Shown piece by piece: positions 7,448-55,478 of a DNA stretch of 64,000 bases. The notes beneath the pieces are model-generated. The model had not been told where the DNA came from, did not search any database, and saw only the letters and a list, made by a program, of their open reading frames with translations. Every line of letters begins with the position of its first letter. Position 1 is the stretch's first letter. The translations under genes were made by a program, and so were the position numbers. This DNA comes from Parabacteroides sp. (lineage in GTDB: Bacteria; Bacteroidota; Bacteroidia; Bacteroidales; Tannerellaceae), in contig JAGBDR010000049.1 in NCBI GenBank assembly GCA_017937385.1, positions 1-64,000 of the forward strand, given 5' to 3'.

Positions 7448-7573
7448 TTTCATGGCTATGAAACAAAAGTTCCATAGGCATGGAATTGAAATTCCATAAG
7501 CATGAAATTAGAATTCCATAGGCACGGAACAAAAGTTTCCCGCTGATGGAACAAATGTTTCATAGGCGGGAAA
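7448..7573. repeat. 22-bp periodic palindromic array (six units)
   Basis: Six 16-bp units begin exactly every 22 bp, at 7448, 7470, 7492, 7514, 7536 and 7558, separated by 6-bp spacers (CAAAAG, TTGAAA, TTAGAA, CAAAAG, CAAATG). The best unit is TTCCATAGGCATGGAA, a near-palindrome with consensus TTYCATRRGCATGRAA. The last two units differ in a compensatory way: the left half of unit 5 (TTTCCCGC) is the exact complement of the right half of unit 6 (GCGGGAAA), giving a cross-unit hairpin. The array starts 24 bp downstream of the leftward MFS stop codon. Confidence 0.85.
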
Positions 7574-7597
7574 CAGATGACGAGAAAAAGGAGGAAT

Positions 7598-9004
7598 TTA
7601 GTTTTTCCCCTCTCCCTTTATGTTCGGAAGTTCCAAGCCGTAACCTTTGATTTTGTCTTCCCGTTTCAGCAACAAGGAGATCACAAGTGCCAAGATACCG
7701 AAACAGGTAAAAATCAACATCGGGATCGTATAATCATAGGTCGGTTTACCATTGATTTCTCCGGAAATGCAATACTGGTCCAATACGATGCCGATCATAT
7801 AGGGAACGCCCATCAATCCCCAGTTCTGCACCCAGAATATCAGTGCGTATGCCGTTCCCAATTTGTTTTCCGGAATGATTTTCGGAACAGAAGGCCACAT
7901 GGCGGAAGGAACCAGCGAAAAAGCAATACCCAACAACAGGATCAGCGCCAAAGCGACCAGCCAGTTGTCCAGCATCGGGATTGAGAATGTGAAGTGAATG
8001 AATATCAGCATGATGGAACCGATAACCATGATGGTCGCCCCTTTTCCCTTGCGGTCGTACAAGTTTCCGAAGAACGGAGTCAGCAGAATATTGCCGAACG
8101 GCAACAGAGCCGGAATGACACCGGACCATTCCGGGTCGATACCGAACTTGTTAATCATCAGGTTCGGAGCATATTTCAGGAAGGGAAAGACTGCCGAATA
8201 GAACAGCACACAAAGGAGCGCCATATACCAAAAGCCCCGTAACGTAATGATATCCAGGATATCGCCAAAACGGAACGGTTCTTCCGATTCTTCTTCTCCG
8301 GTCGCACTGGCCGCATCTTCCGCATCCCGTTTCTTATCCATGATGACGAATACGACAAAGGACAACAGACCGATACAAAGCAGAATCAGACCGATGAAGA
8401 TCGGCATACTGATGGAATTGCCGAACGCACGGCTCAACAAAGGGGTCACACCGATTGCCAACCCCGTACCGATACGGGCACAAGCCATTTCCAGTCCCAT
8501 TGCCAAGGCCATCTCCTTGCCTTTGAACCATTTTACGATGATCTTCGAAACGGTGATGCCGGCAATCTCGACTCCAACCCCGAACAGGGCATATCCCAAC
8601 GAAGCGATGAGCAACGGATAGCCATATTCCGTGCCGAAAAGGGTAACGGTCGCGCCGTCAAAGTTATGCGAAATGCCGAACCATTTGATGAAGACACCGA
8701 TAAGCATAATACTGGTCGCCATCAAACCGGTGAAACGTACGCCCATCTTATCCAAGATCATACCTCCGAAAATCAACATCAGGAAGAATACGTTGAACCA
8801 GCCGTAGGCACTGGTGAACTTGCCGTATTCATTGGCGGTCCATCCCAATCCGCCTCCTTCGACGGGCGTTTGCAGTAAGTCTTGTAGCGGAGCCATCATA
8901 TCTGTGATGAAGTATCCGCAAAGCATTGTAAATGCGACGAGCGCCAGTACAGACCATCTTGCGGTCTTCGATTCGCTCAATTTTCTCTGAATTTGTTCTG
9001 TCAT
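7598..9004 (-). CDS. Major facilitator superfamily transporter
   Basis: A 468-residue integral membrane protein with about twelve hydrophobic segments and an MFS A-motif-like loop after helix 2 (GGMILDKMGVRFTG, near 80-93). A charged cytoplasmic loop with acidic stretch (KKRDAEDAASATGEEESEE) separates the two six-helix halves. The substrate cannot be read from the sequence. It starts 23 bp downstream of folC on the same strand, so the two are probably cotranscribed. The start ATG is preceded by no better in-frame candidate. Confidence 0.88.
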   Translation of the reverse strand: MTEQIQRKLSESKTARWSVLALVAFTMLCGYFITDMMAPLQDLLQTPVEGGGLGWTANEYGKFTSAYGWFNVFFLMLIFGGMILDKMGVRFTGLMATSIMLIGVFIKWFGISHNFDGATVTLFGTEYGYPLLIASLGYALFGVGVEIAGITVSKIIVKWFKGKEMALAMGLEMACARIGTGLAIGVTPLLSRAFGNSISMPIFIGLILLCIGLLSFVVFVIMDKKRDAEDAASATGEEESEEPFRFGDILDIITLRGFWYMALLCVLFYSAVFPFLKYAPNLMINKFGIDPEWSGVIPALLPFGNILLTPFFGNLYDRKGKGATIMVIGSIMLIFIHFTFSIPMLDNWLVALALILLLGIAFSLVPSAMWPSVPKIIPENKLGTAYALIFWVQNWGLMGVPYMIGIVLDQYCISGEINGKPTYDYTIPMLIFTCFGILALVISLLLKREDKIKGYGLELPNIKGEGKN

Positions 9005-9027
9005 GATATTTGTTTTTAAGTTTTATG

Positions 9028-10335
9028 TTATTTGTTTTCTTTCAGAAACAAAGGCAAGGCGTCTGCCACGATGAAAGTGCTGCCGCCGATGAAGACGATG
9101 TCGTCTTGTCCGGCACGTGCCAACGCTTTTTCCACAGCTTCCGGCACGGAATCGCAGGTCATGCCCGACAAACCGTGCCGTGCCGCCTTCTCTGCAAACT
9201 TTTCCGCCGGCATTGCCCGTTGGACGGAGGCTTGTGTGAAGAAATAGAATGCCTCTTTCGGCATGAGTTCCAACACGCCGTCAATATCTTTGTCGTTGAC
9301 CATGCCGACGATCATGAAGAGGTGTTGATGCTGTTTCCGCTCTTCTTCCAGCTGGATGTTCAGATATTGCCACCCTCCTACGTTGTGCCCGGTGTCGCAT
9401 ACGACTTTCGGGTGCTTCTGCAAAACCTGCCAACGCCCCATCAGCCCGGTCAGTTCGACTACCTGTTTGAACCCTTCCCGTACCGCTTCAGCCGGAATGT
9501 CCACACCGGCCGCTTTCAACAAACGAATAGCACCCAATACGGTCGTGGCATTTCTGAACTGCACGAGGCCGCCCAGTTCGCCGAACAGCTGCCCATATTC
9601 CGTAGCCTCCAGACACCATTCACCCGTATCCGTCAGATACGATTCTTTCAGCAACCCTTCGTCTTGGGCAAAATAAACCGTAGTGCCGACTTTGTCGGCT
9701 GCGTCCGTAAACACTTGTGCCACACTATGCCGGTCCGCTTCGCCGATCAATGCCGGAACCGCTTTCTTGATGATACCGGCTTTTTCAGAAGCGATCTTTT
9801 CGACCGTATCTCCTAAGAACTGGGTGTGATCCAAGCTGATGTTTGTGATGACACTCAGGATGGGAGTAATAATATTGGTACTGTCCAGACGGCCGCCCAA
9901 GCCAACTTCGATAATGGCATAATCCACCTTCTCGGCACGGAAATAGTCAAATGCCAAGCTGGATGTCAGTTCGAAGAAAGAGGGATCGAGCGTTTCAAAA
10001 AAGGGACGATGGCGTTCTACGAAATCAACGACATATTCCTTCGGTATCTTTTCACCGTTTACCCGTATCCGTTCGCGGAAATCGATCAGGTGCGGAGAGG
10101 TATAAAGCCCGACTTTATAACCCGACTGACGTAGGATGGCTGCCAGCAAATGGCTGACGGAGCCTTTCCCGTTCGTGCCGGCTATATGTATCGTTTTGTA
10201 TGCTTTATGCGGATTGCCTAAATGATCGTCCAGTGCAATGCTGGTCCCTAATCCGGGTTTGTATGCCGAAGGTCCGGCATTCTGAAAAACAGGAATACTG
10301 GTATATAAATAGTGTAGCGTTTCTTCGTATGTCAT
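9028..10335 (-). CDS. folC: Bifunctional folylpolyglutamate/dihydrofolate synthase
   Basis: A Mur-ligase-fold enzyme that adds glutamate to folates. From the chosen start it has 435 residues. The P-loop GTNGKGSVSH is at 53-62, the family signature ISLDHTQFLGDT lies mid-protein, and the C-terminal domain carries DTGHNVGGW. An in-frame ATG exists 12 codons upstream (10371), but a -7 box for this gene sits at 10359-10366, so that codon would not be transcribed. I therefore choose the ATG at 10335. Confidence 0.93.
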   Translation of the reverse strand: MTYEETLHYLYTSIPVFQNAGPSAYKPGLGTSIALDDHLGNPHKAYKTIHIAGTNGKGSVSHLLAAILRQSGYKVGLYTSPHLIDFRERIRVNGEKIPKEYVVDFVERHRPFFETLDPSFFELTSSLAFDYFRAEKVDYAIIEVGLGGRLDSTNIITPILSVITNISLDHTQFLGDTVEKIASEKAGIIKKAVPALIGEADRHSVAQVFTDAADKVGTTVYFAQDEGLLKESYLTDTGEWCLEATEYGQLFGELGGLVQFRNATTVLGAIRLLKAAGVDIPAEAVREGFKQVVELTGLMGRWQVLQKHPKVVCDTGHNVGGWQYLNIQLEEERKQHQHLFMIVGMVNDKDIDGVLELMPKEAFYFFTQASVQRAMPAEKFAEKAARHGLSGMTCDSVPEAVEKALARAGQDDIVFIGGSTFIVADALPLFLKENK

Positions 10336-10358
10336 GCTGTTTGGTAATTTATGTTTCG

Positions 10359-10388
10359 CAAAAGTAGTCATTTTTATTTATACCTTTG
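10359..10388. promoter_or_regulatory. Two facing promoter -7 boxes for folC (-) and the TSCPD gene (+)
   Basis: TACTTTTG reads leftward at 10366-10359 and TACCTTTG reads rightward at 10381-10388. The two -7 elements are only 14 bp apart back to back, so the -33 region of each overlaps the other promoter and simultaneous polymerase binding looks sterically difficult. Confidence 0.6.
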
Positions 10389-10424
10389 CACATCGTTAAT
10401 AGAAATAAAAAGAAAGGAACAGAA

Positions 10425-10682
10425 ATGAATAAGCAACGTGTTACTTACACTCCGACCGGCGGGGTATGTTCTAAAATGATGATTATCGACTCGGAGGACA
10501 ACGTAATTAAAGAGGTACAGATCATTGGCGGCTGCCAAGGAAACACACAAGGTTTATCCAAACTGTTGGTCGGCATGGAAGTCGGCGAGGCAATCCGGCG
10601 TTTGGAAGGCATCGATTGCCGCGAGCGCGGAACGTCGTGCCCGGACCAGTTGGCACAGGCTCTGAAACAGATCAGGCGGTAA
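10425..10682 (+). CDS. TSCPD domain protein (TIGR03905 family)
   Basis: An 85-residue protein ending with the family signature TSCPD (70-74) and carrying four cysteines (15, 37, 65, 72), a pattern consistent with metal binding. The domain also occurs at the C-terminus of some vitamin B12-dependent ribonucleotide reductases; the role of the stand-alone form is unknown. An in-frame TTG at 10386 overlaps the -7 box, so the ATG at 10425 is the credible start. Confidence 0.88.
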   Translation: MNKQRVTYTPTGGVCSKMMIIDSEDNVIKEVQIIGGCQGNTQGLSKLLVGMEVGEAIRRLEGIDCRERGTSCPDQLAQALKQIRR

Positions 10683-10733
10683 TAAACCGTCTGTTCTGTC
10701 CCGAAAAACCATACTTTGCAAATGTTAAAACAT

Positions 10734-10920
10734 ACAATATCCCCACCTAAAAACCACTTATCCCATATTCACCTGATTAATAGGCTATTTCCAAAAATCT
10801 TGTTTCTTAAAGAATATTACTCTTGCGGGAAATTTTAGTTTCATGGGTATAAAACTTGATTTTCATGCCGAGGAGTTTCAATTTGGACCAATAGGCATTT
10901 TGAAAAATCAGACAATAAGG
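10734..10920 (+). repeat. Dispersed ~190-bp intergenic element, copy 2
   Basis: Same order of conserved blocks as 145-333 and nearly the same length (187 against 189 bp): ACAATATCCCCA at the start, AATATTACTCTTGCGGG near 10813, AATTTGGACCAAT near 10880 and GACAATAAGG at the end. Matching word order with substitutions spread throughout indicates old common ancestry. It fills most of the 344-bp gap between the TSCPD gene and the first barrel gene. The remaining 10921-11026 is AT-rich with no promoter I can assign firmly. Confidence 0.6.
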
Positions 10921-11026
10921 GTACGATCAAATCCATTCTGTAATAATTTGTGTAATATTTATTGCATTTTGTCGTAGAATAACGATTATCTTTATCATTG
11001 TTTTTTGCTTTTTAAAGTCTAATGAT

Positions 11027-11707
11027 ATGAAAAAGAGAGTTTTTCTATTGTTCAGCCTCTTTCTAATCTCCCATTCATTCAGTTTTGGGCAGACGTTGGA
11101 TAAGGAGTGTTTTCTTCACAAATGGAGTGTGGGAGCTGGTTATAACTTTTTGAATGATCCGGAAAACCCATTTGACAAGCGGACGTTTGAATTGTCAGTG
11201 AAGTATCGGTTGACGGACAAGCATTCGTTTTACTTGATGGTTCCACTTTATGTGGAAAACAGCAAGAGAATACGAAAAAAATATAGCTTTGAGAATGTGA
11301 TCCCTTGGTTACATCGTATTTGGGGAACGGAACTTGGATACAATTATACGATGTTTGATTGGAAAAGGCTCTGTCTATTTGGTGGAATAGGCTTAAGCTA
11401 TTTACATGCATGCCAAGACGTTAAATATCCTACAGATTGGGTTGGAGAATGGGGGAATAAACATCCTACTGACTATTTTATGATAAAGAAGAAGTATAAT
11501 GGTTATGGTTTATCGCCACAAGTTGGCATATCGTATCAATTTCAGCATATAGGATGTGAATTGAAATATAAATATAGCCTATATCGGATGAAGAGAGATG
11601 TACGTTGGATAGAATCAGATGGGAGTATAAGTGACGCATATGGAGGAAAACGGTATTACTTTGAATCATTGCATGGTTTGTCGATAGGATTGTTTTACTA
11701 CTTTTAA
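11027..11707 (+). CDS. Outer-membrane beta-barrel protein, paralogue 1
   Basis: A 226-residue protein with a Sec signal peptide (about 1-21, cut after SFSFGQ). The rest alternates aromatic and polar residues and ends in LFYYF, the C-terminal phenylalanine typical of outer-membrane barrels; its size suits 8-10 strands. The mature part is roughly 75% identical to the product of 12143-12841, but the signal peptides are unrelated. It is followed 12 bp later by a truncated copy of the cargo gene that also follows paralogue 2, so a two-gene unit was duplicated. No known family recognised; AT-rich compared with dnaB downstream. Confidence 0.75.
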   Translation: MKKRVFLLFSLFLISHSFSFGQTLDKECFLHKWSVGAGYNFLNDPENPFDKRTFELSVKYRLTDKHSFYLMVPLYVENSKRIRKKYSFENVIPWLHRIWGTELGYNYTMFDWKRLCLFGGIGLSYLHACQDVKYPTDWVGEWGNKHPTDYFMIKKKYNGYGLSPQVGISYQFQHIGCELKYKYSLYRMKRDVRWIESDGSISDAYGGKRYYFESLHGLSIGLFYYF

Positions 11708-11719
11708 ATTCTAAAAATC

Positions 11720-11929
11720 ATGAAAACGAAATTATTAGGTATTTTATTAGGACTGTGTACAATATTGTCCGCTGTCCATGCACAATCAATTGCAGAAGAT
11801 GGACAACATAAAGAGTTGGCTTGGCCTACGGAACAAACATGCTATATTGCATGGAAACCAACTAACGGAACAATCAATTTCATAACTTGGCATGTTACGA
11901 ATGGTTTGTGCAGCCATAGGAAAAGGTAA
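11720..11929 (+). pseudogene. Truncated copy of the T9SS cargo gene (5' end only)
   Basis: The 69-residue frame matches the first 62 residues of the 662-residue protein at 12854 almost exactly, including signal peptide and start of the mature protein, then diverges after HVTNG and stops. Nucleotide identity over the shared ~190 bp is about 94%, and about 97% after the first 45 bp, higher than between the two upstream barrel genes. The rest of the cargo gene, including its C-terminal sorting domain, is missing. It is probably a remnant of tandem duplication; whether the 69-residue product is made is unknown. Confidence 0.8.
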
Positions 11930-12079
11930 TTTATGTTATGAAACATATATTCACATTGTATTTTTTCCTCCGACAATTACATTTGCAACATTATTATCAA
12001 TATATTTACAATCAGTAATCATCAATTGCAGGCATAAAAAAAGGAAAAACCGCCTGCCAGAAATTTGTCATGATCCCAA

Positions 12080-12100
12080 CGACCCTTCGGTCGGTCTTTT
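12080..12100 (+). terminator. Small hairpin terminator between duplicated units
   Basis: CGACC (12080-12084), loop CTTC, GGTCG (12089-12093), followed by GTCTTTT. The stem is short but has a stable tetraloop and a T-run, and it sits in the 213-bp gap between the truncated cargo copy and the second barrel gene. Confidence 0.55.
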
Positions 12101-12841: not shown

Positions 12842-12853
12842 TACTGAAATATC

Positions 12854-26006: not shown

Positions 26007-26085
26007 AATGCCCATTATAAGGTCGTTACAATGCCTATTCTAACAACCTAACAATGCCCATCCAAAGGACCTTACGATGGGCATT
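26007..26085. repeat. 23-bp periodic array (three units plus inverted end)
   Basis: Units begin at 26007, 26030 and 26053, exactly 23 bp apart, each starting AATGCCYAT and ending near TAAC or TTAC. The third unit is followed by GATGGGCATT (26076-26085), the exact complement of AATGCCCATC (26053-26062). Unit 1 shares AAGGTCGTTAC with the array at 49480. It starts 9 bp after the thiC stop. The 300-bp gap to htpG holds this array, the dyads at 26118-26174 and AT-rich sequence with a possible -7 box (TATATTTG, 26189-26196). Confidence 0.8.
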
Positions 26086-28349: not shown

Positions 28350-28379
28350 ACGAGAATCGGAAAAGAGGATTGTTTTTGA

Positions 28380-28439
28380 TTCCATGCCCATCCCTTTTCC
28401 ATTCCATGCCCATGCAATCAAAAACGCATGGGCATGGAA
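28380..28439. repeat. 22-bp periodic array with 14-bp hairpin
   Basis: Three 16-bp units start at 28380, 28402 and 28424, exactly 22 bp apart, with 6-bp spacers. Units 1 and 2 start TTCCATGCCCAT; unit 3 is the inverted form ending GGGCATGGAA. TTCCATGCCCATGC (28402-28415) is the exact complement of 28426-28439, giving a 14-bp hairpin. The architecture matches the arrays at 7448 and 55397, but the core is ATGCCCAT rather than ATAGGCAT. It starts 30 bp after the htpG stop and may serve as its 3' end. Confidence 0.8.
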
Positions 28440-30885: not shown

Positions 30886-30925
30886 CAATTAAATCATAAA
30901 TTATAAATCATAAATCATAAATCAT
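30878..30925. repeat. 7-bp tandem repeats spanning the gene junction
   Basis: ATAATTGACAATT (30878-30890), which contains the radical SAM stop codon, is followed by five 7-bp units AAATCAT, AAATTAT and AAATCAT three times (30891-30925). The array ends 3 bp before the GTG start of the next gene. Similar 7-bp arrays occur at 32463, 41545 and 61515. Confidence 0.75.
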
Positions 30926-32462: not shown

Positions 32463-32497
32463 CAATTGACAATTGATAATTGACAATTGACAATTTA
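32463..32497. repeat. 7-bp tandem repeats after the TldD stop
   Basis: Five consecutive 7-bp units: CAATTGA, CAATTGA, TAATTGA, CAATTGA, CAATTTA. The array starts 2 bp after the stop codon and ends 14 bp before the next start. Confidence 0.8.
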
Positions 32498-33919: not shown

Positions 33920-34966
33920 TTACTGCTTTAACCGACGTACCTCTTCTACGCTTAACCCTGTAAGTTGCATAATATCTTCTTCTTGCATTCCTTGCTGCAT
34001 CATTTTTCGGATCATAGTACTCATTTTGGTTTCTTGCTCGGCTATGACTGCTTCCTGTTCGGTTATAACAGCGTCTTTCTTAGTTATGACTGCATCCTTT
34101 TCAGCTATGACCGTTTCCTTTTCAGCTATGACCGTTTCCTTTTCGGCTATGACTGTTTCTTTCTCAGCTATGACCGTTTCTTTCTCAGCTATAATCTTAT
34201 CGCGATTCATTATTGCTGTGTCGCGGTCTTCAAGAGCCATGAAATATTCTTCTTCCACATTCATGTCTTGGCGGAGTTTTGAATCGGCTGCTGCGGCCAA
34301 CAGACGGTGGAGGATATATTCCATCTCCTTATCGCCAGCATAAAGATCTTCCTCTACCAATAATACCTGGTTGTTGGTTTTATCTTTCATCGTCTGATCA
34401 AACACACTCAGTACTTTATCCAAACGGTTGTTGACTTGACCACGAAGAAGCGGGATCTGAACGATAATACTATCATGCGTCAGGCTTTCCACGAACGGGT
34501 TGGGAAGGCCTTTGGTCACCTCAACACCGGCATAATCATGTGATTTATGATTGACATACAAAACCGGTTCTTCTATATCACCTACCCGATGTCCCAACAA
34601 ATAAACGGCTACCATAGGCAAAGCCGACGTTTTACGTCGCTCTTCGCCCACCATATTTTCCGGATTGGCATACTGGGCTCCAAGATATTGACGGAAACGC
34701 AACGTTTCCGTCTCAAGCCAAGTCTTTTGGAGTTCTATCAGGATAAGGCGTTCTCTTCCGTCCGATTCTTTCACACGCGCGGCAAAATCTATACGGAACA
34801 TTGATATATTATCGCGCTGTCCGTTGGTGTATTCATGACGGCGTGTCTCAACGCTCAGGACTTCCTTTTTCAGCAATGCAGAAAGAAGTGTTTTGGCGAT
34901 CCGTTCATCTTCCATCAGATACTTGAACACAGAATCGTAAATCGGATTGGCTATGTGTATAATCAT
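33920..34966 (-). CDS. Rpn-family recombination-promoting nuclease (PD-(D/E)XK)
   Basis: A 348-residue protein. Residues about 1-230 are the Rpn/PD-(D/E)XK family nuclease domain: NPIYDSVFKYLMED at the N-terminus and the catalytic strand pair FRIDFAARV ... LILIELQKTW (D then ExQ). The C-terminal part has a tandem heptad repeat (AEKETVI and variants, about 255-310) predicted to form a coiled coil, then MMQQGMQEEDIMQLTGLSVEEVRRLK, the usual Rpn tail. Such proteins are often annotated as putative transposases, but no terminal repeats or insertion-sequence features flank it. Function in the host is unknown. Confidence 0.85.
   Translation of the reverse strand: MIIHIANPIYDSVFKYLMEDERIAKTLLSALLKKEVLSVETRRHEYTNGQRDNISMFRIDFAARVKESDGRERLILIELQKTWLETETLRFRQYLGAQYANPENMVGEERRKTSALPMVAVYLLGHRVGDIEEPVLYVNHKSHDYAGVEVTKGLPNPFVESLTHDSIIVQIPLLRGQVNNRLDKVLSVFDQTMKDKTNNQVLLVEEDLYAGDKEMEYILHRLLAAAADSKLRQDMNVEEEYFMALEDRDTAIMNRDKIIAEKETVIAEKETVIAEKETVIAEKETVIAEKDAVITKKDAVITEQEAVIAEQETKMSTMIRKMMQQGMQEEDIMQLTGLSVEEVRRLKQ
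34030..34204 (-). repeat. 21-bp coding tandem repeat in the Rpn gene
   Basis: About eight 21-bp units, each coding seven residues. The units around 34096-34180 are almost identical; those toward the 3' end of the gene (coding EKDAVIT, EQEAVIA) have diverged. Because 21 is a multiple of three, gain or loss of units changes coiled-coil length without a frameshift. Confidence 0.85.
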
Positions 34967-40369: not shown

Positions 40370-41548
40370 ATGATACAAAAAGAATTGATCGACGATCTCA
40401 AGCTGAAATGGGATCGTTTGCAGCAAGCCATGCGACAAATAAACGCCGATGGCTGCCTGCTCGCCGTAGATGTAAATCTGTATTATACGACCGGACGTAT
40501 CTATAGCGGTTACTTTTATCTTCCTGCGGAAGGTGCCCCCTGGTTCTTCGTGAAACGACCGAACGGTTTGGACGGCGACCAGGTGGAATACATACGGAAA
40601 CCGGAACAGATGGCAGAGCTCTTTGCCGCGCACGGCTTGAAAATGCCGGAAAAGTTGCTGCTCGAAGCGGACGAACTGACCTACAACGAATACATCCGCC
40701 TGCAAACCATCTTCCATCCGAAAGAAACAGCCAACGCAACCGCCGTGATACGCGGACTGCGCCGGATCAAGACACCTCACGAGATTGAAATGTTCCGCCT
40801 ATCGGCCGAACGCCATGCCCGGACATACGCCGAGATTCCCGAATGCTTCCGTCCCGGAATGACAGACCTCGAATTCCAATATGAAATAGAAAAGCGGATG
40901 CGCAAGAACGGTTCCATCGGGCTGTTCCGCGCGTTCGGTGCCAATATGGATATTTTTATGGGAAGCATTCTGGCGGGAGAAAATGCCGAAACGCCCTCTC
41001 CTTTCGACTTCGCCTTAGGGGGCGGCGGTATCGACGCTTCCTGCCCGTTGGGTGCGAACAGGACGGTCCTGAGAGAGGGAACGGCCGTCATGGTGGATAT
41101 GGCAGGCAACTACACGGCTTATATGACCGATATGACGCGCGTCTTCTCAGTCGGCTGGCTGACGGACCTCGCCTACCGGGCACACCAGACCGCCCTCTCT
41201 ATCCAAAACGAAATCGAACGTGTCGCACGGCCGGGAACCCCTTGCGCCGACCTCTACAACATAGCCGCCCGGATTACCGAAGAACAAGGACTCAGCCCCT
41301 ATTTCATGGGGACCAAGCAACAGGCGAAGTTCGTCGGACACGGCATCGGCATCCAGATCAACGAACTCCCCGTACTTACACCCCGCTCAAAAGAGGTGCT
41401 GGAGCCGAACATGGTATTCGCCCTCGAACCCAAATACGTGATACCGGGCGTAGGTGCCGTCGGCATCGAAAACAGTTTCTTAGTCACAGAAAACGGTCTG
41501 GAGAAAATCACCCATTTCCCAGAAAACATCATCCCATTAGACAAATAA
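40370..41548 (+). CDS. M24 family Xaa-Pro aminopeptidase
   Basis: A 392-residue cytoplasmic peptidase with an N-terminal creatinase-like domain (about 1-155) and a pita-bread M24 domain. Metal ligands are visible in VDMAGNYTAYMTDMTRVF (two Asp), GHGIG (His) and FALEPKY ... GIEN (two Glu). No signal peptide. The gene ends in a 7-bp repeat array leading directly into phoA. Confidence 0.9.
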   Translation: MIQKELIDDLKLKWDRLQQAMRQINADGCLLAVDVNLYYTTGRIYSGYFYLPAEGAPWFFVKRPNGLDGDQVEYIRKPEQMAELFAAHGLKMPEKLLLEADELTYNEYIRLQTIFHPKETANATAVIRGLRRIKTPHEIEMFRLSAERHARTYAEIPECFRPGMTDLEFQYEIEKRMRKNGSIGLFRAFGANMDIFMGSILAGENAETPSPFDFALGGGGIDASCPLGANRTVLREGTAVMVDMAGNYTAYMTDMTRVFSVGWLTDLAYRAHQTALSIQNEIERVARPGTPCADLYNIAARITEEQGLSPYFMGTKQQAKFVGHGIGIQINELPVLTPRSKEVLEPNMVFALEPKYVIPGVGAVGIENSFLVTENGLEKITHFPENIIPLDK

Positions 41549-41567
41549 ATCATAAATCATAAATCAT
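41545..41567. repeat. 7-bp tandem repeats at the pepP-phoA junction
   Basis: Three 7-bp units ATAAATC plus AT, overlapping the stop codon of the peptidase gene (41546-41548) and ending 1 bp before the phoA ATG at 41569. It therefore forms the whole 20-bp intercistronic spacer. Confidence 0.75.
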
Positions 41568-41568
41568 A

Positions 41569-43263
41569 ATGAAAAAGACAATCACTCTTCTCCTGCTACT
41601 GGCAATCATCTTCGCGCCGGTAAAAGCCCAGGAAACAAAAAACGTCAAGCCGGTAAAGAATGTCATCCTTCTGATTCCGGACGGTACATCCATCGGTACA
41701 GTCTCCATGGCACGTTGGCTGCAATGGTACACCAACCCCGACAAGCCGAAATTGAACATCGACCCGTATCTCTGCGGAACCGTTCGCACGCATTCTTCGA
41801 ATGCCCCGATCGGCGACTCGGCCCCTACGACCTCTTGCTACATGACTGGACAGCCCAGCCGTACAGGTTATGTTTCCACCTATCCGGAGAACGACGGTAA
41901 CAACGACATCTACCCGACCGATCCGGCACGTGCTTTCCAACCCTTGACAACCGTCCTGGAAGCCGCCAAGATCAAACAGGGCAAATCGACCGGATTGGTT
42001 TTCACCTGCGAGTTCCCGCATGCGACACCGGCCGACTGTTCCGCCCACAGCTACAACCGGGGCAAATATGAATGGATCGCCCCGCAGATGGCCCACAATG
42101 ACCTGAACGTCGTGATCGGCGGTGGTGCCGGCTTGCTTCCCGAAGAGAGCGAAGCCTACCTGAAAGGCAACGGATACGGCGTCTTCAAGAATGACATCAA
42201 CGGTATGCGTAACTATAAAGGCGACAAGATGTGGGCCCTGTTCGGCGACCGGGAAATGGCTTACGACCTCGACCGCGACCCTGCCCAGCAACCCTCTTTG
42301 GAAGAAATGACACGCAAAGCGATTGAAAAACTTTCCCAGAACCCGAACGGCTTCTTCCTGATGGTGGAAGGCAGTAAGGTAGACTGGGCGGCCCACGCCA
42401 ACGACCCGGTCGGCATGGCAACCGATTTCCTGGCTTACGACCGTGCTTGCGGCGCCGCGCTCGAATTTGCCCGCCGGAATGGGGAAACAGCCGTTATCAT
42501 GGTTCCCGACCACGGCAACAGCGGGATCAGCATCGGCCGTCGCGACTGTACCGGCTACGACAAGCTGAGCAAGGAACAGCTGTTCCACCAGTTCTCCCTG
42601 TACAAGCTGACTGCCGAAGGTTTCGCACAAAAGGTGAACAGCGTCCCGGCTTCTGAAGTGCAGAACGTGTTCCGCACCTATGCCGGTTTCGAACTGACCC
42701 CGGAAGAGCTGGATGCCTTGAACCATTGCAAAGATTACAAGAACAGCCCGATACCGGAAAGCGAACGTTCGATCAAAGGCAAAGGTTCCTTGTATAGCGG
42801 CTCGCTGACCTCTTTCATGTCCAAATTGCTGACCTCCCGCACTTGCTTCGGCTTTACGACAGGCGGCCATACCGGTGAAGAGGTATTCCTCGCCGCCTAC
42901 CATCCGGACCTTGCCAGCCTGCCACTGGGTATGCACACCAACATCGAGCTGAACCAGTATCTCTGCGCCCTGTTCGGCATGACGCACGATACGCTGGAAG
43001 AACTGACAGCCGCCAACTTCGTCCCTCACACGGAAGTATTCAAGAACTTCAAATGTGAAATCGTCCCGGCTGCGGACGAAAAAGGGTCTCCTTCATTGGT
43101 GGTAAAGAACAAGAAGAAACAAATCAACATCACACCGTTCAGCAACATCGTGACAATCGGAAAGAAAGGCCAGGAGGAAATCCGCCTGAACTCGGTAGTC
43201 GTGTATGTAGACAAGAACAACACATTCTATTTACCCTCTAAATTAGCGGATTACCTGCAATAA
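41569..43263 (+). CDS. phoA: Periplasmic alkaline phosphatase
   Basis: A 564-residue metal-dependent phosphatase with a signal peptide (about 1-20, FAPVKAQ). The N-terminal metal ligand is in LLIPDGTSIG, the catalytic serine is S84 in GDSAPTTS, and the other metal-binding regions are HANDPVG, MVPDHGNSG and TGGHTGEEV. A C-terminal extension of about 90 residues (about 475-564) lies past the catalytic core. Probably cotranscribed with the peptidase gene (20-bp gap). Confidence 0.93.
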   Translation: MKKTITLLLLLAIIFAPVKAQETKNVKPVKNVILLIPDGTSIGTVSMARWLQWYTNPDKPKLNIDPYLCGTVRTHSSNAPIGDSAPTTSCYMTGQPSRTGYVSTYPENDGNNDIYPTDPARAFQPLTTVLEAAKIKQGKSTGLVFTCEFPHATPADCSAHSYNRGKYEWIAPQMAHNDLNVVIGGGAGLLPEESEAYLKGNGYGVFKNDINGMRNYKGDKMWALFGDREMAYDLDRDPAQQPSLEEMTRKAIEKLSQNPNGFFLMVEGSKVDWAAHANDPVGMATDFLAYDRACGAALEFARRNGETAVIMVPDHGNSGISIGRRDCTGYDKLSKEQLFHQFSLYKLTAEGFAQKVNSVPASEVQNVFRTYAGFELTPEELDALNHCKDYKNSPIPESERSIKGKGSLYSGSLTSFMSKLLTSRTCFGFTTGGHTGEEVFLAAYHPDLASLPLGMHTNIELNQYLCALFGMTHDTLEELTAANFVPHTEVFKNFKCEIVPAADEKGSPSLVVKNKKKQINITPFSNIVTIGKKGQEEIRLNSVVVYVDKNNTFYLPSKLADYLQ

Positions 43264-43302
43264 GCACCCCTGTCTGCAAAGGTGCCGCACACCCCTCCCG
43301 AC

Positions 43303-43440
43303 ATCTGCTGCAGATCTCCTCCGAGGACTGCTGCAGATGTCTTCCGAGGACTGCAGCAGATGTCCCCCGACGACTGCAGCAGATGTCGGAGGACGACTGC
43401 AGCAGATGTCGGAAGGGTACTGCAGCAGATGTCAGAAAGG
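43303..43440. repeat. 23-bp periodic array (six units), GACTGCAGCAGATGTC core
   Basis: Six units start every 23 bp, at 43303, 43326, 43349, 43372, 43395 and 43418. Each has a 16-bp core (consensus GACTGCAGCAGATGTC) and a 7-bp variable spacer (CTCCGAG, TTCCGAG, CCCCGAC, GGAGGAC, GGAAGGG, AGAAAGG). The first unit is preceded by GAC so that it also reads as the inverted core. The array begins 40 bp after the phoA stop. The remainder of the 361-bp gap (43441-43624) is AT-rich and contains only the promoter of the efflux operon. Confidence 0.85.
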
Positions 43441-49479: not shown

Positions 49480-49534
49480 AATGCCCATTGTAAGGTCGTT
49501 ACAATACCTATTCAAACGACCTTACAATGGGCAT
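49480..49534. repeat. 23-bp periodic array folding into a 20-bp perfect hairpin
   Basis: Two 23-bp units (from 49480 and 49503) and an inverted end. Positions 49481-49500 are the exact complement of 49515-49534, a 20-bp stem with a 14-nt loop. The left arm (ATGCCCATTGTAAGGTCGTT) closely matches the first unit of the array at 26007. It lies 73 bp downstream of the leftward ridA stop. With the terminator at 49362-49410 it explains most of the 305-bp gap 49303-49607; the rest holds nothing I recognise. Confidence 0.85.
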
Positions 49535-49607
49535 CATAAGACTGTACCCGTCCCTATCGGCAAATCCATGTCCAGAACGGGCAGTTCCCGCATCTACTGC
49601 AATAGCT

Positions 49608-50807: not shown

Positions 50808-51524
50808 TTACATACTTTTCTCGATGTTCCGCCTGTCGCCCGTACGCGGACGGTCATTCATACGTCCCTTGTCAGAACGCTTGTCCTCCTTTTTGCCTTT
50901 ATTGTAACGGCTGTCCTGATTCCGGTCCGGGCGTTTCCGGTCATATTGGCCCCTATCACTTTTTTCCTTACGCTTATCGGGACCGGGACGGCTTCCCTGA
51001 AGGTTCGGACGATCGTATTTGCCTGGATACCATTTGCCGTCGTCGAAACGGTCGAACCATCTGTTATTCGTATATTCCCACCGGCAATGCCAGTAATGAT
51101 CCTCATAACGATGGCATGCAGCGGACGGACGATAGTGCGGATAATGCGGGTTGTTATACCAACCTCTCCAGTCATGAATGCGCGTCGGTGTCTCGCGGAC
51201 GAAACGCACATACAAACGGAACTGCGAAGGTGAAAGAAGACGCTGCAACTTCCGGTCCCGTTCCATACGCAACTTATATATCTTCTGCGCAGACTGGTCC
51301 CAATAGCGATAATGCCTACGTGCCTCCCGCTCGATCTTCTCTCCGTACCGATGAATGATCTTATGATACTCGGCAGCCTGACGGTTCGTCATACGGATTG
51401 CCTGTTCCATCCAAAGACAGTTCTGGCAATGAGGTTCATTCCATCCGAAACGGATCCAAAACTGTGCATGTCCCTGCAAACTGCAAAAAAGGACGGCCAA
51501 CAATAGAATACTCAATCTCTTCAT
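50808..51524 (-). CDS. Secreted, strongly basic protein of unknown function
   Basis: A 238-residue protein with a signal peptide (about 1-20, SLQGHAQ). The mature N-terminal half is helical and rich in Arg, Tyr and Trp, with a single CQNC; the last ~70 residues are low-complexity Lys/Arg/Asp/Gly (for example DKRKEKSDRGQYDRKRPDR). The composition suggests nucleic-acid or surface binding, but no family is recognised. The frame opens with TTG at 51533; the ATG at 51524 puts the signal peptide at the N-terminus. It lies 65 bp downstream of recN. Confidence 0.75.
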   Translation of the reverse strand: MKRLSILLLAVLFCSLQGHAQFWIRFGWNEPHCQNCLWMEQAIRMTNRQAAEYHKIIHRYGEKIEREARRHYRYWDQSAQKIYKLRMERDRKLQRLLSPSQFRLYVRFVRETPTRIHDWRGWYNNPHYPHYRPSAACHRYEDHYWHCRWEYTNNRWFDRFDDGKWYPGKYDRPNLQGSRPGPDKRKEKSDRGQYDRKRPDRNQDSRYNKGKKEDKRSDKGRMNDRPRTGDRRNIEKSM

Positions 51525-51589
51525 GTCACTCAATTTTTAGTTAGCACTTACAATCTGTTACTATTATGACCGGATAGCGATGAAAAGGT

Positions 51590-53254
51590 TTAATTCTTAG
51601 CTTTCAACAGTTCTTTTGCATTGGCAATAGAGGCACTCGTCAACGAAGCACCGCTCAACATACGCGCAATCTCTTTCACGCGCTCTTCCTTATTCAGTTT
51701 CCGGATACGGGTAACGGTCCGTTCGTCCGTATCTTCCTTGTAAACAAAATAATGGTCTTTTCCTTTTGCCGCGATCTGGGGAAGATGGGTAATGGCGAAG
51801 ACCTGCATCTTCGTCCCCAACTCCTGCATGATATCCCCCATTTTATCGGCAATATCACCGGAAACACCCGTGTCCACTTCGTCAAAGATGATGGCAGGCA
51901 ACGCTGTAAATCCGGCAATCATCGCCTTGATGCATAACATCAGGCGGGAAATCTCACCTCCGGAAGCGGTCTGGGCCACCGGTTGCAGTTCCGCACTCTT
52001 ATTGGCGGAAAACATGAACCGGATTTCGTCCATTCCATCGCTTTCCGGCTCCGGTTTGGGCACAAAGTCGATCGTAAAACGCGTATTCGGCATACCGAGC
52101 GGAACAACCATCTCCACCAACTGGGAAGCGATGGCTCTTGAGGCGATCTTACGCTGTTCACTCAACACGGCTGCCTGTTGCAACAATTCCTGATGGGAAA
52201 TCTCCAACTGTTTCTTCAACGATTCGATCTGCTCGTCAAAAGAATCGATCTCCTTCAGCTGTTCACTATATTTTTCCTGCAAGGCGATCAGCTCTTCGAC
52301 CTTGGAAACCCGGTGTTTCTGTTCTAAAGTATATAAAGTATTAAGACGTTCGTTCACCCAATCCAAACGTTCCGGATTAAACTCGATATCCTCTTTCAGT
52401 ACTTCCGTTTCGGAAGCCAAGTCATTCATGTCGATATAGGCAGAACGCAAACGCTCGGCAATTTCTTTCGCTTTCGGATAATACCGCTCCAGACTGTCTG
52501 CGGTGGAAAGGGCCTCTTTCATCAGTTGGACGGCTCCCTGTTCCTCCCCGTCCAACAGTTGGGTGACCTTATAAAGAGAACCTTTTATCTCTTCGGCATG
52601 GGAAAGGGTTTCCAGTTCCTGCTCCAGTTCTTCCTGTTCACCGGCCACCAGAGCGGCATCTGTCAGTTGCTCCAGCTGGAAACGTACGTAATCTTCCTCC
52701 TGTTTGGTCTGGAGCGCTTTCTCGGTCAGCACTTTCAGTTCCTTTTTCAAAGACTGGTAACGACTGTACTCCTTTCGGTAAAGGATCAACAAGATATCGT
52801 TTTCGGCCATTACATCGATCACTTTCAACTGAAACCGATTGTCGCCCAACAAAAGATTCTGGTGTTGCGAATGGATGTCAATCAACCGGCTCCCCAATTC
52901 TTTCACCACAGAAAGCGGGACAGGCGAATCGTTGACAAAAGCACGGGACTTTCCCGAAGCAAACAGTTCCCGGCGAAGAATACAAACCTCCGCATCATAC
53001 TCCAGATCGTTCGTAAGAAAAAATTCTTCCAACTTATAACGGGAAACATCGAAAACGGCTTCTATCACACATTTCTCGGAGCCATTCTTAATGCTCTTTC
53101 CATCTGCACGCTGTCCCAAGACCAAGGAAAGGGCCCCTAATATGATGGACTTTCCTGCGCCCGTCTCGCCGGTGATCACAGAAAAGCCCTTGTCGAACTG
53201 GATATCCAGGCTGTCTATCAGAACAAAGTTCCGTATAAATAAAGATTTCAGCAT
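51590..53254 (-). CDS. recN: DNA repair protein RecN
   Basis: A 554-residue SMC-like ATPase of recombinational repair. Walker A GETGAGKS is at about 31-38, long coiled-coil arms fill about 160-370, and the C-terminal ABC half has ASGGEISRLMLCIKA (signature) and AIIFDEVDTGVSGD (Walker B). It starts 12 bp after the porD stop in a leftward cluster. Confidence 0.95.
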   Translation of the reverse strand: MLKSLFIRNFVLIDSLDIQFDKGFSVITGETGAGKSIILGALSLVLGQRADGKSIKNGSEKCVIEAVFDVSRYKLEEFFLTNDLEYDAEVCILRRELFASGKSRAFVNDSPVPLSVVKELGSRLIDIHSQHQNLLLGDNRFQLKVIDVMAENDILLILYRKEYSRYQSLKKELKVLTEKALQTKQEEDYVRFQLEQLTDAALVAGEQEELEQELETLSHAEEIKGSLYKVTQLLDGEEQGAVQLMKEALSTADSLERYYPKAKEIAERLRSAYIDMNDLASETEVLKEDIEFNPERLDWVNERLNTLYTLEQKHRVSKVEELIALQEKYSEQLKEIDSFDEQIESLKKQLEISHQELLQQAAVLSEQRKIASRAIASQLVEMVVPLGMPNTRFTIDFVPKPEPESDGMDEIRFMFSANKSAELQPVAQTASGGEISRLMLCIKAMIAGFTALPAIIFDEVDTGVSGDIADKMGDIMQELGTKMQVFAITHLPQIAAKGKDHYFVYKEDTDERTVTRIRKLNKEERVKEIARMLSGASLTSASIANAKELLKAKN

Positions 53255-53266
53255 AGCGATTCCTGA

Positions 53267-54175
53267 TTACTTTTTAAGCGACTCCATCCGCGTCGTGAGA
53301 GCTGGATACAGGTTGGACAACATCTTGTATCCCTCCTGTTTCTCCGGCGCAGTAGCTTTCGAATAAATCAAAACGACCTCATCCAACTTGGAGTCGGCAA
53401 ACATCTGAAGCAAGGGCGATGTCGGCCGGGCACTCTTCACCTGTTCCAAGACCGGAAGCAAACCAATGATAGTCGTACGTCCACGATCCGGGTTTGCCGC
53501 CATTTCATCGAGTCCTTTACGATGATAATTATACCACATATCCCGGAACAGCTCCGAAGTATTATTGTCCGTCAGAGCCGTCGCCAACGCATGACGGTTA
53601 CGGTCGTTTTCAAAAGCTTTCCAGCCGGTCCATGCCGGCTGTGCCTGTGCCAGGCTCACGATCTGCATGGCCTGCCCGAAGAAAGCCGTGCCTCCTTTCG
53701 GGGAAAAACTGTCGAAATCCAACCCGAGGATCGTATAGATATAGAAAACAACCGTTGCGATCAGATTGTTGCTCAACGTGTTTTCCGTATATTCCAACGG
53801 TTCGAATTCGGTATAGTCGAAAGCGAGTTCCGTATCACGATAGTTCAGCAACGTAGTCGTATAACTGGAATTATAGACCGGACGGCGGGCCTGTACCTGT
53901 ATCTCGCCCTTAAAACTGTTGTCCGACACGATTTCGCTGATGATGAGCGTCATGGAACAGTCGATACGCTCGTTGATGGCAAAAGTGGCATCCGTCCACT
54001 TCTTATTATTGACGAAATCATTCAATGCATCCTGCAAGGTCTTGAATACCTGTTTATTCGTACTCTGCACCTTATCACTGTTGATGGTGATGCGGGCATT
54101 CAATTCCTGCGCCTTCCCGATAAAAGGCGCAACCCCCAACAAGCACATACATAACAATTTCTTCATCATTCTCAT
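53267..54175 (-). CDS. porD: DUF4835 / PorD-type protein
   Basis: A 302-residue exported protein with a signal peptide (about 1-22, FIGKAQ) starting with the ELNARITINSDKVQSTNKQVFKTLQ segment typical of DUF4835. The family is named PorD and linked to type IX secretion in some Bacteroidetes, but members also occur in species without a full type IX system, so the role here is uncertain. Its ATG overlaps the coaBC stop by four bases (ATGA), which sets the start. Confidence 0.88.
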   Translation of the reverse strand: MRMMKKLLCMCLLGVAPFIGKAQELNARITINSDKVQSTNKQVFKTLQDALNDFVNNKKWTDATFAINERIDCSMTLIISEIVSDNSFKGEIQVQARRPVYNSSYTTTLLNYRDTELAFDYTEFEPLEYTENTLSNNLIATVVFYIYTILGLDFDSFSPKGGTAFFGQAMQIVSLAQAQPAWTGWKAFENDRNRHALATALTDNNTSELFRDMWYNYHRKGLDEMAANPDRGRTTIIGLLPVLEQVKSARPTSPLLQMFADSKLDEVVLIYSKATAPEKQEGYKMLSNLYPALTTRMESLKK

Positions 54176-55383
54176 TTTAATATCGTTGCCAATTTGTTTA
54201 CAATATCGACGGCCACTCCCAGTTTGCTCTTCAACGGATAAGCGGTCGTCCCGCCCTCCTTGTCGATGATCGTGATCTTATTCGTGTCGCAACGGAAACC
54301 GGCACCTGCATCCCGCAAGGAGTTCAGCACGATGAAATCGAGGTTTTTCCGCTTCAGTTTCCCCTCCGCATGAGCCGTCTCATCGTTGGTTTCCAATGCG
54401 AACCCCACCAAGACCTGGTTATCCCGCTTGATTGCGCCCAACGCGGCAGCGATATCCTTGTTCGGCACCAGACGGAGCGTCATCTCTCCTTTCGTCTCCC
54501 GCTTGATCTTTTCGCTTGCCTGCTCTTCCGGGCGATAATCCGCCACGGCCGCACAGAGAATGCCGGCATCCGCTTCCGGGAAAACCGCTATGGCAGCCTG
54601 ATACATCTCTTCAGCCGATTCGACATCGATCCGTCTGATATTCGGATGAACCACCTTCAAGGACACCGGTCCCGCGATCAATGTCACCTCGGCTCCCTGC
54701 TCCGCACAAGCTTCCGCCAAAGCAAATCCCATCTTTCCGGAGGAATAGTTACCGATAAAACGTACGGGGTCTATCTTTTCATACGTCGGACCCGCCGTTA
54801 TGACAATCTTTTTTTTTTCAAGCCGGGTTCGGGAAGCGAAGAAATCTTCCAGGACCGCCACGATCCGATCCGGTTCCTCCATGCGCCCCTTGCCCACCAG
54901 ATGGCTGGCAAGCTCTCCTTCGGCCGGTTCGATGATCCGGTTCCCGAACGAACGAAGCCGGTCCAGGTTCTGTTGCGTGGAGGGATGTGCGAACATATCC
55001 AGGTCCATTGCCGGTGCGACAAAAACCGGCGCTTTGCATGACAGATAGGTCGTGACCAGCATATTGTCGGCAATGCCGTTCGCCATCTTCCCGATGGTCG
55101 AAGCGGTGGCCGGCGCGACCAGCATGGCATCGGCCCAGAGGCCCAGATCGACATGGCTGTTCCACGTCCCGTCGCGGTTCGAGAAAAACTCGCTGATCAC
55201 CGGATGGCAACTCAACGTCGATAGGGTGAGCGGCGTGATGAATTCTTTCCCTGCCGGAGTAATGACAACTTGGACCTCCGCCCCTTTCTTCACTAAGGCA
55301 CGGATGATATAGGCGGCTTTATAGGCAGCGATGCTCCCTGTTATCCCCAATATGATATGTTTACCTTTCAGACTATTCTCCAT
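54172..55383 (-). CDS. coaBC: Bifunctional phosphopantothenoylcysteine decarboxylase/phosphopantothenate-cysteine ligase
   Basis: A 403-residue coenzyme A synthesis enzyme. The N-terminal flavoprotein CoaC half (about 1-180) has GITGSIAAYKAA, the catalytic histidine in NSHVDLG and PAMDLDMF; the C-terminal CoaB half begins near ITAGPTYEKIDPVRFIGNYSSGKMG. The frame is open 23 codons further upstream, but that stretch is the palindromic repeat array at 55397-55478 and would code repeat-derived residues. The ATG at 55383 gives the family start. Confidence 0.95.
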   Translation of the reverse strand: MENSLKGKHIILGITGSIAAYKAAYIIRALVKKGAEVQVVITPAGKEFITPLTLSTLSCHPVISEFFSNRDGTWNSHVDLGLWADAMLVAPATASTIGKMANGIADNMLVTTYLSCKAPVFVAPAMDLDMFAHPSTQQNLDRLRSFGNRIIEPAEGELASHLVGKGRMEEPDRIVAVLEDFFASRTRLEKKKIVITAGPTYEKIDPVRFIGNYSSGKMGFALAEACAEQGAEVTLIAGPVSLKVVHPNIRRIDVESAEEMYQAAIAVFPEADAGILCAAVADYRPEEQASEKIKRETKGEMTLRLVPNKDIAAALGAIKRDNQVLVGFALETNDETAHAEGKLKRKNLDFIVLNSLRDAGAGFRCDTNKITIIDKEGGTTAYPLKSKLGVAVDIVNKLATILK

Positions 55384-55396
55384 AATCAATTCTATA

Positions 55397-55478
55397 TTCC
55401 ATAAGCATGGAACTTTCGTTTCATAAGCATGGAATTCTTGTTCCATAGGCATGAAACTTTAGTTCCATAAGCATGAAA
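55397..55478. repeat. 22-bp periodic palindromic array (four units)
   Basis: Four 16-bp units start at 55397, 55419, 55441 and 55463, exactly 22 bp apart, with 6-bp spacers CTTTCG, TTCTTG and CTTTAG. Units read TTCCATAAGCATGGAA, TTTCATAAGCATGGAA, TTCCATAGGCATGAAA and TTCCATAAGCATGAAA. Same consensus as at 7448. It starts 8 bp downstream of the exonuclease stop and lies inside a leftward operon, before coaBC. Confidence 0.88.

Follow-up and report, generated by a model that had tools for sequence, protein, structure and literature searches.

Why should six intergenic loci in one stretch of bacterial DNA carry near-palindromic units repeated at exactly 22 or 23 bp, and why should they lie beside stop codons? 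The window analyzed here is the whole of that stretch, 64,000 nucleotides from Parabacteroides sp. (GCA_017937385.1, contig JAGBDR010000049.1, forward strand, 1–64,000). Its six arrays belong to a genome-wide class.

RESULTS

Periodic Arrays in the Window

All six loci reported in the initial annotation were present with exact 22- or 23-bp spacing, at coordinates that were right or off by a few bases, and they fall into three families (A, three loci; B, two loci; C, one locus). The first A array (7448–7573) comprises six units of 16 + 6 = 22 bp with the core TTYCAT-NNGC-ATGRAA, some of them degenerate, and lies 24 bp past the stop codon of an MFS transporter gene on the minus strand (7598–9004). 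A dispersed 60-bp element of the A type (28380–28439, three units of 22 bp) is found 30 bp past the stop codon of an HSP90-family gene, and the third A array (55397–55478, four units of 22 bp) occupies the gap from an exonuclease stop codon (55487, minus strand), 8 bp away, to the coaBC/dfp start (taken as 55383, minus strand). Family B is represented by a 79-bp element of four 23-bp units (26007–26085), 9 bp past the thiC stop codon (25997, plus strand), and by a 56-bp element with one unit fewer, three in all (49480–49535), which sits between convergent genes for an outer membrane efflux protein and a Ribonuc_L-PSP family protein, 72 bp from the stop codon. The C array (43300–43433), downstream of an alkaline phosphatase gene (41569–43263, plus strand), consists of one inverted unit (43300–43315) followed by five units with a GACTGCAGCAGATGTC-type core at 23-bp spacing; its distance from the stop codon is 31–39 bp. 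The measured distances (8–39 bp at five loci, 72 bp at the sixth) bear out the original estimates of less than 40 and less than 75 bp. The accompanying claim that cores are unlike between loci was borne out across families but not within A (7448, 28380, and 55397) or within B (26007 and 49480).

TRF (minimum score 30) returned the stated period at 7466–7529 (22 bp), 26007–26079 (23 bp), 43305–43433 (23 bp), and 55397–55475 (22 bp). At 28379–28413 it returned a period of 11 bp and at 49480–49534 it made no call; at both loci the 22/23-bp register is visible on alignment of the units. No Rfam match above the gathering score was found in the window.

Period Spectrum

The draft genome comprises 128 contigs and is 90.5% complete. 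The period spectrum was obtained solely from 864 kb, or 23% of the 3.73-Mb draft, consisting of the window and 40 stretches of 20 kb on contigs chosen for pattern hits; 40 further, shorter stretches, also chosen on pattern hits, lie outside the spectrum. Genes were called with a simple script of our own and were left uncurated. In 92,214 intergenic bases, 16 matches were observed at a period of 22 bp, 12 at 23 bp, and four at 21 bp, and five dinucleotide-preserving shuffles gave none at periods 21–23. The sole other period with more than four matches before removal of low-complexity repeats was 14 bp (six matches, put down to 7-bp repeats). After removal, the spectrum from 12 to 60 bp retained 16 matches at 22 bp, 12 at 23 bp, four at 44 bp, and three each at 21 and 46 bp, with two or fewer at every other period. 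Chance and simple repeats are thus ruled out as the source of the 22/23-bp peak by the shuffles and the low-complexity filter. A period match is not always a separate array; merging and filtering at a slightly looser threshold gave 42 arrays of period 21–23, 37 of them 22 or 23, after 11 of 53 rows had been dropped (seven coding, three simple repeats, and one of period 24) and one array called coding (L007:6399) had been retained by hand.

The peak recurs, mostly with other cores, elsewhere in the Bacteroidales (12 arrays in the 136 kb sampled). No 22/23-bp array was found in 103 kb sampled from other orders or classes, where the comparison set of 40 stretches from 21 genomes was taken as other orders because it was labeled “same class.” An Escherichia coli control, at 50 kb too small to weigh, gave zero repeats at periods 12–60.

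Families and Their Copies

Within 1.02 Mb of the genome's own sequence, chosen partly for pattern hits, family A comprised 53 arrays with 212 units and family B 32 arrays, counts that describe the sampled places only because of this choice and that include weak members (an A “array” of a single unit, one in a called gene, and one B array with two units). Both families are dispersed repeats, usually of 3–5 units. The 60-bp element at 28380 has copies matching at 59/60 positions (L026:7988) and 58/60 positions (L022:11000); their flanks are unrelated, they diverge at the element ends, and no consistent target duplication was seen by eye. Similarly, 22 B elements have a common positional consensus over 79 bp, which is lost within a few bases when they are aligned with 15-bp flanks. 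In view of these copies, the part of the earlier suggestion that set aside one copied mobile element is not supported. The copies are also what would be expected of selfish or neutral elements of a REP/MITE-like kind, persisting mainly where they are least harmful, at gene 3′ ends, any terminator effect being incidental.

The B consensus is a dyad, TTAnRATGSSCATYnTAA, recurring each 23 bp, with near-invariant positions separated by free ones. The octamer ATRGGCAT is common to A and B, and the A center has GC on a single side in 124 of 129 units, while no unit has it on both. Units had been described as alike within a locus; in A the description is weak for the cores (77% identity within arrays versus 75% between them), and for the spacers within-array identity is higher (52% versus 36%). 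Core orientation shows no strand bias (77:64 in A; six sense to seven antisense in B), and a strand-specific RNA was accordingly rejected as the array product. A minor 21-bp family, GAAGACGGTCGTC, contains CGTC.

Position Relative to Genes

Of 77 A and B arrays, 4 lie in divergent gaps, whereas such gaps make up 57 of the 234 in the background (p = 1e-4). Among 37 codirectional A arrays, 32 begin no more than 44 bp past the upstream stop codon, five of these overlapping the called gene end, and in the unbiased set 21 of 26 codirectional arrays lie nearer the 3′ end (p = 0.0025). The avoidance of divergent gaps would also follow from purging of selfish elements. The initial annotation had named two outcomes that would count against it, arrays no commoner than in shuffled intergenic sequence or no preference for gene 3′ ends. 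Given that the class is genome-wide (28 matches against none in shuffles), its 22/23-bp period sharp, and its 3′-end preference evident, neither outcome was found.

Terminator Signals

Terminator-like signals were located with a simple script of our own based on a hairpin-plus-T rule. In 61 codirectional gaps with arrays, a set that includes, like those for the convergent- and divergent-gap terminator counts, a few 21-bp low-complexity repeats, sense-strand signals overlapped the array in 26 and antisense-strand signals in 10 (discordant gaps 18:2, p = 0.0004). The 220 array-free gaps showed no bias (64 sense versus 70 antisense). The sense signals inside arrays (26/61) were not significantly commoner than those in array-free gaps (64/220, p = 0.06), and the finder is unspecific, signals being present also in 22–30% of array-free divergent gaps. 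For the 37 codirectional A arrays alone, 20 sense and nine antisense signals were counted (p = 0.027); sense-strand signals were observed in 4 of 18 B arrays and 2 of 10 others. Of the convergent gaps, 7 of 18 with arrays carried a terminator-like signal beyond the array, compared with 38 of 54 without arrays (p = 0.025), and when in-array signals were included (13 of 18) the two rates matched.

Folding and Covariation

Both families fold more stably than expected, with mean z values of about −4.5 (A) and −4.1 (B), and whole A arrays reach −28.2 kcal/mol versus −6.4 kcal/mol for their summed single units (46 arrays). The suggested hairpin-templated homogenization was not seen at the unit level: in an A unit, changes in one arm are independent of those in the other (odds ratio 0.98). 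With independent arms and small unit energies, the local unit hairpin was rejected as a selected structure, and mirror pairing of units in A was not above the null. The pairing combination across the A spacer was rarer than under unit permutation (0.421 versus 0.537), and sense-strand G·U was not clearly favored over C·A (33 versus 23). In B, a whole-array long hairpin (73.4% of cells paired versus 74.5% in shuffles) and spacer-centered hairpins (76.9% versus 78.0%) were both ruled out for want of covariation; RNAalifold gave −3.4 kcal/mol, and mutual information was discarded as a structure signal, its top pairs being scattered and many lying in unconserved flanks.

A nearly invariant B dyad each 23 bp that does not covary, independent A arms, a shared octamer, a one-sided GC center, and a period that is constant whatever the core could all be explained by operator arrays, in which each unit would bind a putative dimeric protein, for instance a nucleoid or boundary protein where transcription units end, and the two-turn spacing would allow cooperative binding on one face. 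However, the octamer is not clearly enriched in 85 kb of intergenic sequence outside arrays (ATGGGCAT, 0; ATAGGCAT, 5; permuted octamers, mean 1.8, 95th percentile 5), and a role for ATRGGCAT as an isolated binding site in other places was rejected. The sense-strand terminator bias and the unlike cores that one slot can hold across sister species (below) also tell against operators. We consider a protein-binding array less likely than not, but still a serious rival.

The Same Slots in Related Species

In orthologous slots of relatives, which were cut by hand, 22/23 bp was the top period in 11 of 27 (two of them ties with 44 bp), compared with 6 of 68 control gaps of equal score in those relatives (p = 0.0006); two B slots, 26007 and L034:693, were omitted from this count because their flanks did not align. 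Slots in sister species often contain a 22/23-bp array again, sometimes with another core, and some hold ordinary hairpins (by eye). In one slot compared between G014 and G015, the cores are inverted in two of three units while the intervening stretches are nearly unchanged. In the L034:5422 slot, the left arm of unit 1 and a later right arm differ at three pairs among four species, yet remain complementary in each. Growth by unit length, as initially proposed, is apparent from seven consecutive identical cores at L152:1947 and from an exact 22-bp duplication at the L007:16301 slot in one relative, G015. The arrays are thus dispersed, gain whole 22-bp units, and recur in the slots of sister species with drifting, flipped, or replaced cores.

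Such inversions and exact unit duplications could be produced by hairpin-templated replication errors (template switching or slippage), which might alone create and homogenize functionless arrays. Errors alone, however, would neither place arrays at 3′ ends nor fix the period. The wide period spread and gene-indifferent placement to be expected were not seen, the unit arms are neither homogenized nor covarying, and the copies are dispersed, making this account highly improbable.

The patchy occurrence of B, found by an exact 18-bp pattern in 7 of 36 genus genomes, absent from the close relatives G012, G014, and G015, and present in more distant genomes, is again compatible with selfish elements. 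Against them stand the retention of arrays in slots across species, one with a compensated stem, the sense-strand bias, the lack of a consistent target duplication by eye at copies of the 28380 element, and the lack of a REP transposase domain. Y1_Tnp (PF01797) gave no match in the source genome (90.5% complete), G012, or G015, the E. coli control being positive; it was found in 7 of 36 genus genomes, four times in G014, with G001 outside the search. RAYT-driven REPs were rejected on this absence from the source genome, and selfish or neutral elements in general appear a rather doubtful explanation.

DISCUSSION

Our preferred reading, which we hold tentatively and at somewhat less than even probability, is that the arrays may be REP-like 3′-end hairpin clusters of the Bacteroidales that often act as terminators, lengthen in whole-unit steps, and disperse with no REP transposase of the usual kind. 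We infer that their main work is at the transcript 3′ end; the terminator role is suggested by the sense-strand bias and the replacement of ordinary terminators. Left and right halves of neighboring units would pair into strong hairpins followed by T-rich tracts, such that the array could end or protect the upstream mRNA and stand in for an ordinary terminator. Repeated units would offer many alternative hairpins and hence tolerance of core change. The 22/23-bp period lies outside what termination explains; a guess is that unit-length slippage combined with selection for in-phase units sets it. Alternatively, although we judge this improbable, a Bacteroidales-dedicated enzyme or binding protein might build or keep two-turn, near-palindromic 22/23-bp arrays at 3′ ends independently of the core, with slot and period kept, cores rewritten, and core families swapped between species.

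The Bacteroidales, a dominant order of the human gut, appear to carry little-known periodic extragenic elements where transcripts end, with several dozen arrays present in this genome. Should the arrays terminate or protect mRNAs, they would be relevant to expression maps and to the building of genetic circuits in the order. A protein or enzyme that sets the period, if there is one, would point to an unknown repeat-making or repeat-binding system that works independently of sequence. Two contigs start inside arrays of six identical units, and the arrays may plausibly also cause breaks in assemblies.

The arrays resemble REP/BIME elements: both are short palindromes in extragenic DNA that bear an asymmetric mark, occur in many dispersed copies, lie near stop codons, and can fold in RNA. 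They differ in being tandem at a fixed 22/23 bp and in combining several cores with one architecture. The sections of PMC3733652 that treat REPs define them by a GTAG or CGTC tag and report CGTC repeats in Bacteroidetes; neither tag occurs in the A and B consensus units. For E. coli, earlier work as summarized in part of PMC12306157 placed a significant proportion of REPs 1–20 nt from the nearest open reading frame end and found a translation effect at less than 16 nt.

A second comparison is provided by Porphyromonas gingivalis, which belongs to the same order as the source genome. Its BrickBuilt element, according to the portions of PMC4596501 that describe it, is a 23-nt minisatellite inside a MITE at 19 loci, with intergenic direct repeats, a predicted fold, and a unit number that differs among strains and reaches 22.8; it forms one sequence family, most copies have a leader and/or tail with terminal inverted repeats, and those portions report no BLASTn match outside P. 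gingivalis. Compared by description, families B and C share the 23-nt intergenic tandem repeat (A units are 22 bp), whereas the present arrays fall into many families of usually 3–5 units with period 22 as often as 23, and neither B nor the 28380 element showed a leader or tail with terminal inverted repeats.

Finally, ordinary intrinsic terminators are single hairpins, whereas the arrays are periodic, dispersed, and built on common cores, and B rarely satisfies the hairpin-plus-T rule (4/18). A possible likeness lies in the predicted sense-strand hairpin and T-tract of 20 of 37 codirectional A arrays, as scored by an unspecific finder, and the arrays occupy terminator slots.

Periodic arrays in the window and the genome

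The initial annotation had described six intergenic loci with units repeated at exactly 22 or 23 bp, beginning within 40 bp of a stop codon at five loci and within 75 bp at the sixth; direct reading of the sequence bore out both statements. By their cores the loci form three families: A (7448, 28380 and 55397), with the core TTYCAT-NNGC-ATGRAA and a 6-bp spacer; B (26007 and 49480), with a core of about TTAnRATGSSCATYnTAA at a 23-bp period; and C (43300-43433), of the GACTGCAGCAGATGTC type at 23 bp. The octamer ATRGGCAT is common to families A and B. Ten neighbouring genes were scanned and proved ordinary, with functions unrelated to one another, and an Rfam search of the window returned no matches. 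A 21/42-bp tandem repeat at 34029-34192 lies within a coding gene (33920-34966, minus strand) and is distinct from the intergenic arrays. Heptad tandem repeats (CAATTGA/TTGTCAA, TAAATCA) were also observed in short intergenic gaps, at 30890-30925, 32463-32495, 41545-41569 and 61512-61542 of the window and in two other stretches of the assembly (L007:8060-8110 and L034:13759-13790).

In whole-genome pattern searches, TTCCATARGCATGRAA gave 31 strand-hits against 0 for its reversed control, a looser A pattern 225 against 7, the B pattern 89 against 6 and the C pattern 14 against 0, with 6 of these 14 at the window locus. An unbiased scan, in which every period from 8 to 60 was scored over the 92,214 intergenic bases in a sample of 864 kb, gave 16 hits at period 22, 12 at 23 and 4 at 21, with none in five shuffles; the next highest period was 14 (6 hits, no low-complexity filter). 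Once low-complexity repeats had been taken out, periods 22 and 23 still accounted for 28 hits, and the highest other periods were 44 (4), 46 (3) and 21 (3), of which 44 and 46 are harmonics of 22 and 23. Merging and filtering at a slightly looser threshold left 42 arrays, of which 37 repeat every 22 or 23 bp and 5 every 21 bp. Coding DNA (770 kb) contained 3 hits at period 22 and 1 at period 23.

Anatomy, growth and dispersal

Within 1.02 Mb of own sequence, partly picked on pattern hits, family A comprised 53 arrays and 212 units, with 3-5 units in 47 of the arrays, and family B comprised 32 arrays, of which 22 span 79 bp and hold exactly four units. These 22 have a common positional consensus and, as judged from their sequence, look like copies of one element. 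The element at 28380 recurs in two further copies that match it at 59/60 and 58/60 positions and have unrelated flanks, and seven identical cores at L152:1947 (family A) make unit-length growth visible; the arrays both disperse and grow stepwise. At the centre of the A unit, GC is found on one side only in 124/129 units and on both sides in none, a count in which the seed pattern disfavours "neither" and not "both", and from which an array within a called gene, holding one perfect palindrome, was left out.

Contigs C112 and C120 each start within an A array of six identical units (L160:13-138 and L161:15-162), with matching spacers on opposite strands; the two are possibly one longer array split by assembly. 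Arrays with core TTTCACAGCTGTGAAA (L013:722-812, L034:11237-11317 and L039:127-194) have a downstream ACTGTCGGTTTCTTC segment in common and so seem to belong to a longer repeated leader. A 21/22-bp family with core GAAGACGGTCGTC or close variants was found at four sample sites (L003:19463, L011:2347, L015:5813 and L036:15201). Stretches resembling AATTGACAATGGACAATTGACAATT, noted alongside the heptad repeats, were matched 50 times across 864 kb of the own genome, with some matches overlapping, and are numerous in the close relatives G012, G014 and G015.

Position relative to genes and possible role at transcript ends

Neighbouring genes are known for 77 A and B arrays, of which 4 lie in divergent gaps; among background gaps 100 bp or longer, 57/234 are divergent (p=1e-4). 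In the unbiased set this depletion was not significant (4/37, p=0.16). In convergent gaps, family B alone was over-represented (10/29, p=0.02), and A and B together were not (p=0.17). Of 37 codirectional A arrays, 32 begin no more than 44 bp past the upstream stop (five of these 32 overlap the called gene end) and 25 are closer to the 3' than to the 5' neighbour, as are 15/18 B arrays. The proposed preference for gene 3' ends held in the unbiased set, where 21/26 arrays were closer to the 3' end (p=0.0025).

The arrays could act as terminators in RNA or as binding arrays for a protein on DNA. They fold far better than shuffles, both strands alike, and this folding comes mostly from pairing between units and less from pairing within them. 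Terminator-like signals (hairpin plus T tract) were called, like the genes, with a simple script. Of 61 codirectional gaps, 26 have such a signal overlapping the array in sense orientation and 10 in antisense orientation (discordant pairs 18:2, p=0.0004); the counts in 220 gaps without arrays are 64 and 70. Sense signals in arrays were not significantly commoner than in array-free gaps (p=0.06), and the finder also fires in 22-30% of divergent gaps without arrays. Separate terminator-like signals were found in 7/18 convergent gaps with arrays versus 38/54 without (p=0.025); the arrays there appear to replace terminators of the separate kind.

Against an RNA function, the arms within an A unit vary independently (odds ratio 0.98), family B displays no covariation under the two structures tested, the cores have no strand bias and only 4/18 B arrays carry a terminator-like signal. 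In family A, permuting the units slightly lowers the pairing between the arms of units j and j+1 (0.767, sd 0.010, against 0.801 observed); this excess of observed pairing is absent at the single most variable position (0.554 versus 0.538). The pairing combination across the spacer is avoided in this family (0.421 versus 0.537 under permutation). In summary, several moderate signals support a role at transcript ends, and termination does not account for the constant 22/23 period. Binding by a protein fits family B and the independence of the arms better, termination fits family A and the strand bias better, and each may be true of different families.

Turnover and distribution among relatives

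For ten intergenic slots that hold an array here, 27 orthologous slots in the relatives G001, G012, G014 and G015 were examined, one of the 27 being too short for scoring. A period of 22 or 23 was the top period among 12-45 in 11/27 (two tied with 44), compared with 6/68 non-divergent gaps of the same relatives at equal score (p=0.0006), a background that includes some of the slots themselves. By our reading, the core is unlike our own in five of these 11: at the coaBC slot in G014 and G015, where CATAGG alone is in common; at the 49480 slot in G001, with GTTTC...GAAAC in place of B; at L034:11237 in G014; and at L007:6399 in G015, with two units. At the coaBC slot a single core is inverted between G014 and G015 in two of three units. 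The interval between coaBC and the exonuclease is about 1.1 kb longer in G012, G014 and G015, apparently a gene; in our genome (55383-55487) it holds the array only. The slot at L034:5422 carries a 22-bp array in all four species compared (own, G012, G014 and G015), weakest in G014; its outer stem is maintained via three compensated pairs, and G012 has an extra unit inside. Elsewhere, slots in the relatives are empty or hold a lone hairpin or an ordinary terminator.

More widely, 80 named loci around coaBC in related species were grouped by record title and passed through the same low-complexity filter. At period 22/23, the 23 kb of intergenic DNA from other Parabacteroides yielded 5 hits (4 arrays, one matched twice), the 29 kb from other Tannerellaceae 1, and the 84 kb from Bacteroidaceae with other Bacteroidales 7, with cores that mostly differ from ours. 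No array at 22/23 was found in 71 kb from genomes labelled as the same class (40 stretches, 21 genomes) or in 32 kb from other classes (20 stretches), where one had period 21. Under equal rates, the probability of finding 12 arrays in 136 kb and none in 103 kb is about 0.001. The core families are patchily distributed: the A core is present in 12/38 genus genomes, and B in 7/36 and in none of G012, G014 and G015.

Comparison with known systems

Membership in the RAYT-type REP elements was rejected on the transposase, of which no Y1_Tnp domain was found in this 90.5% complete genome, and, for families A and B, also on the tag. The excerpted text of PMC3733652 gives CGTC as the tag of one known REP superfamily, and the 21/22-bp GAAGACGGTCGTC family resembles that superfamily in containing CGTC. 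Open-access full texts described no such Bacteroidales arrays besides BrickBuilt among the matches listed. Among described elements of the order, BrickBuilt (PMC4596501) comes closest, but it is one family with MITE ends.
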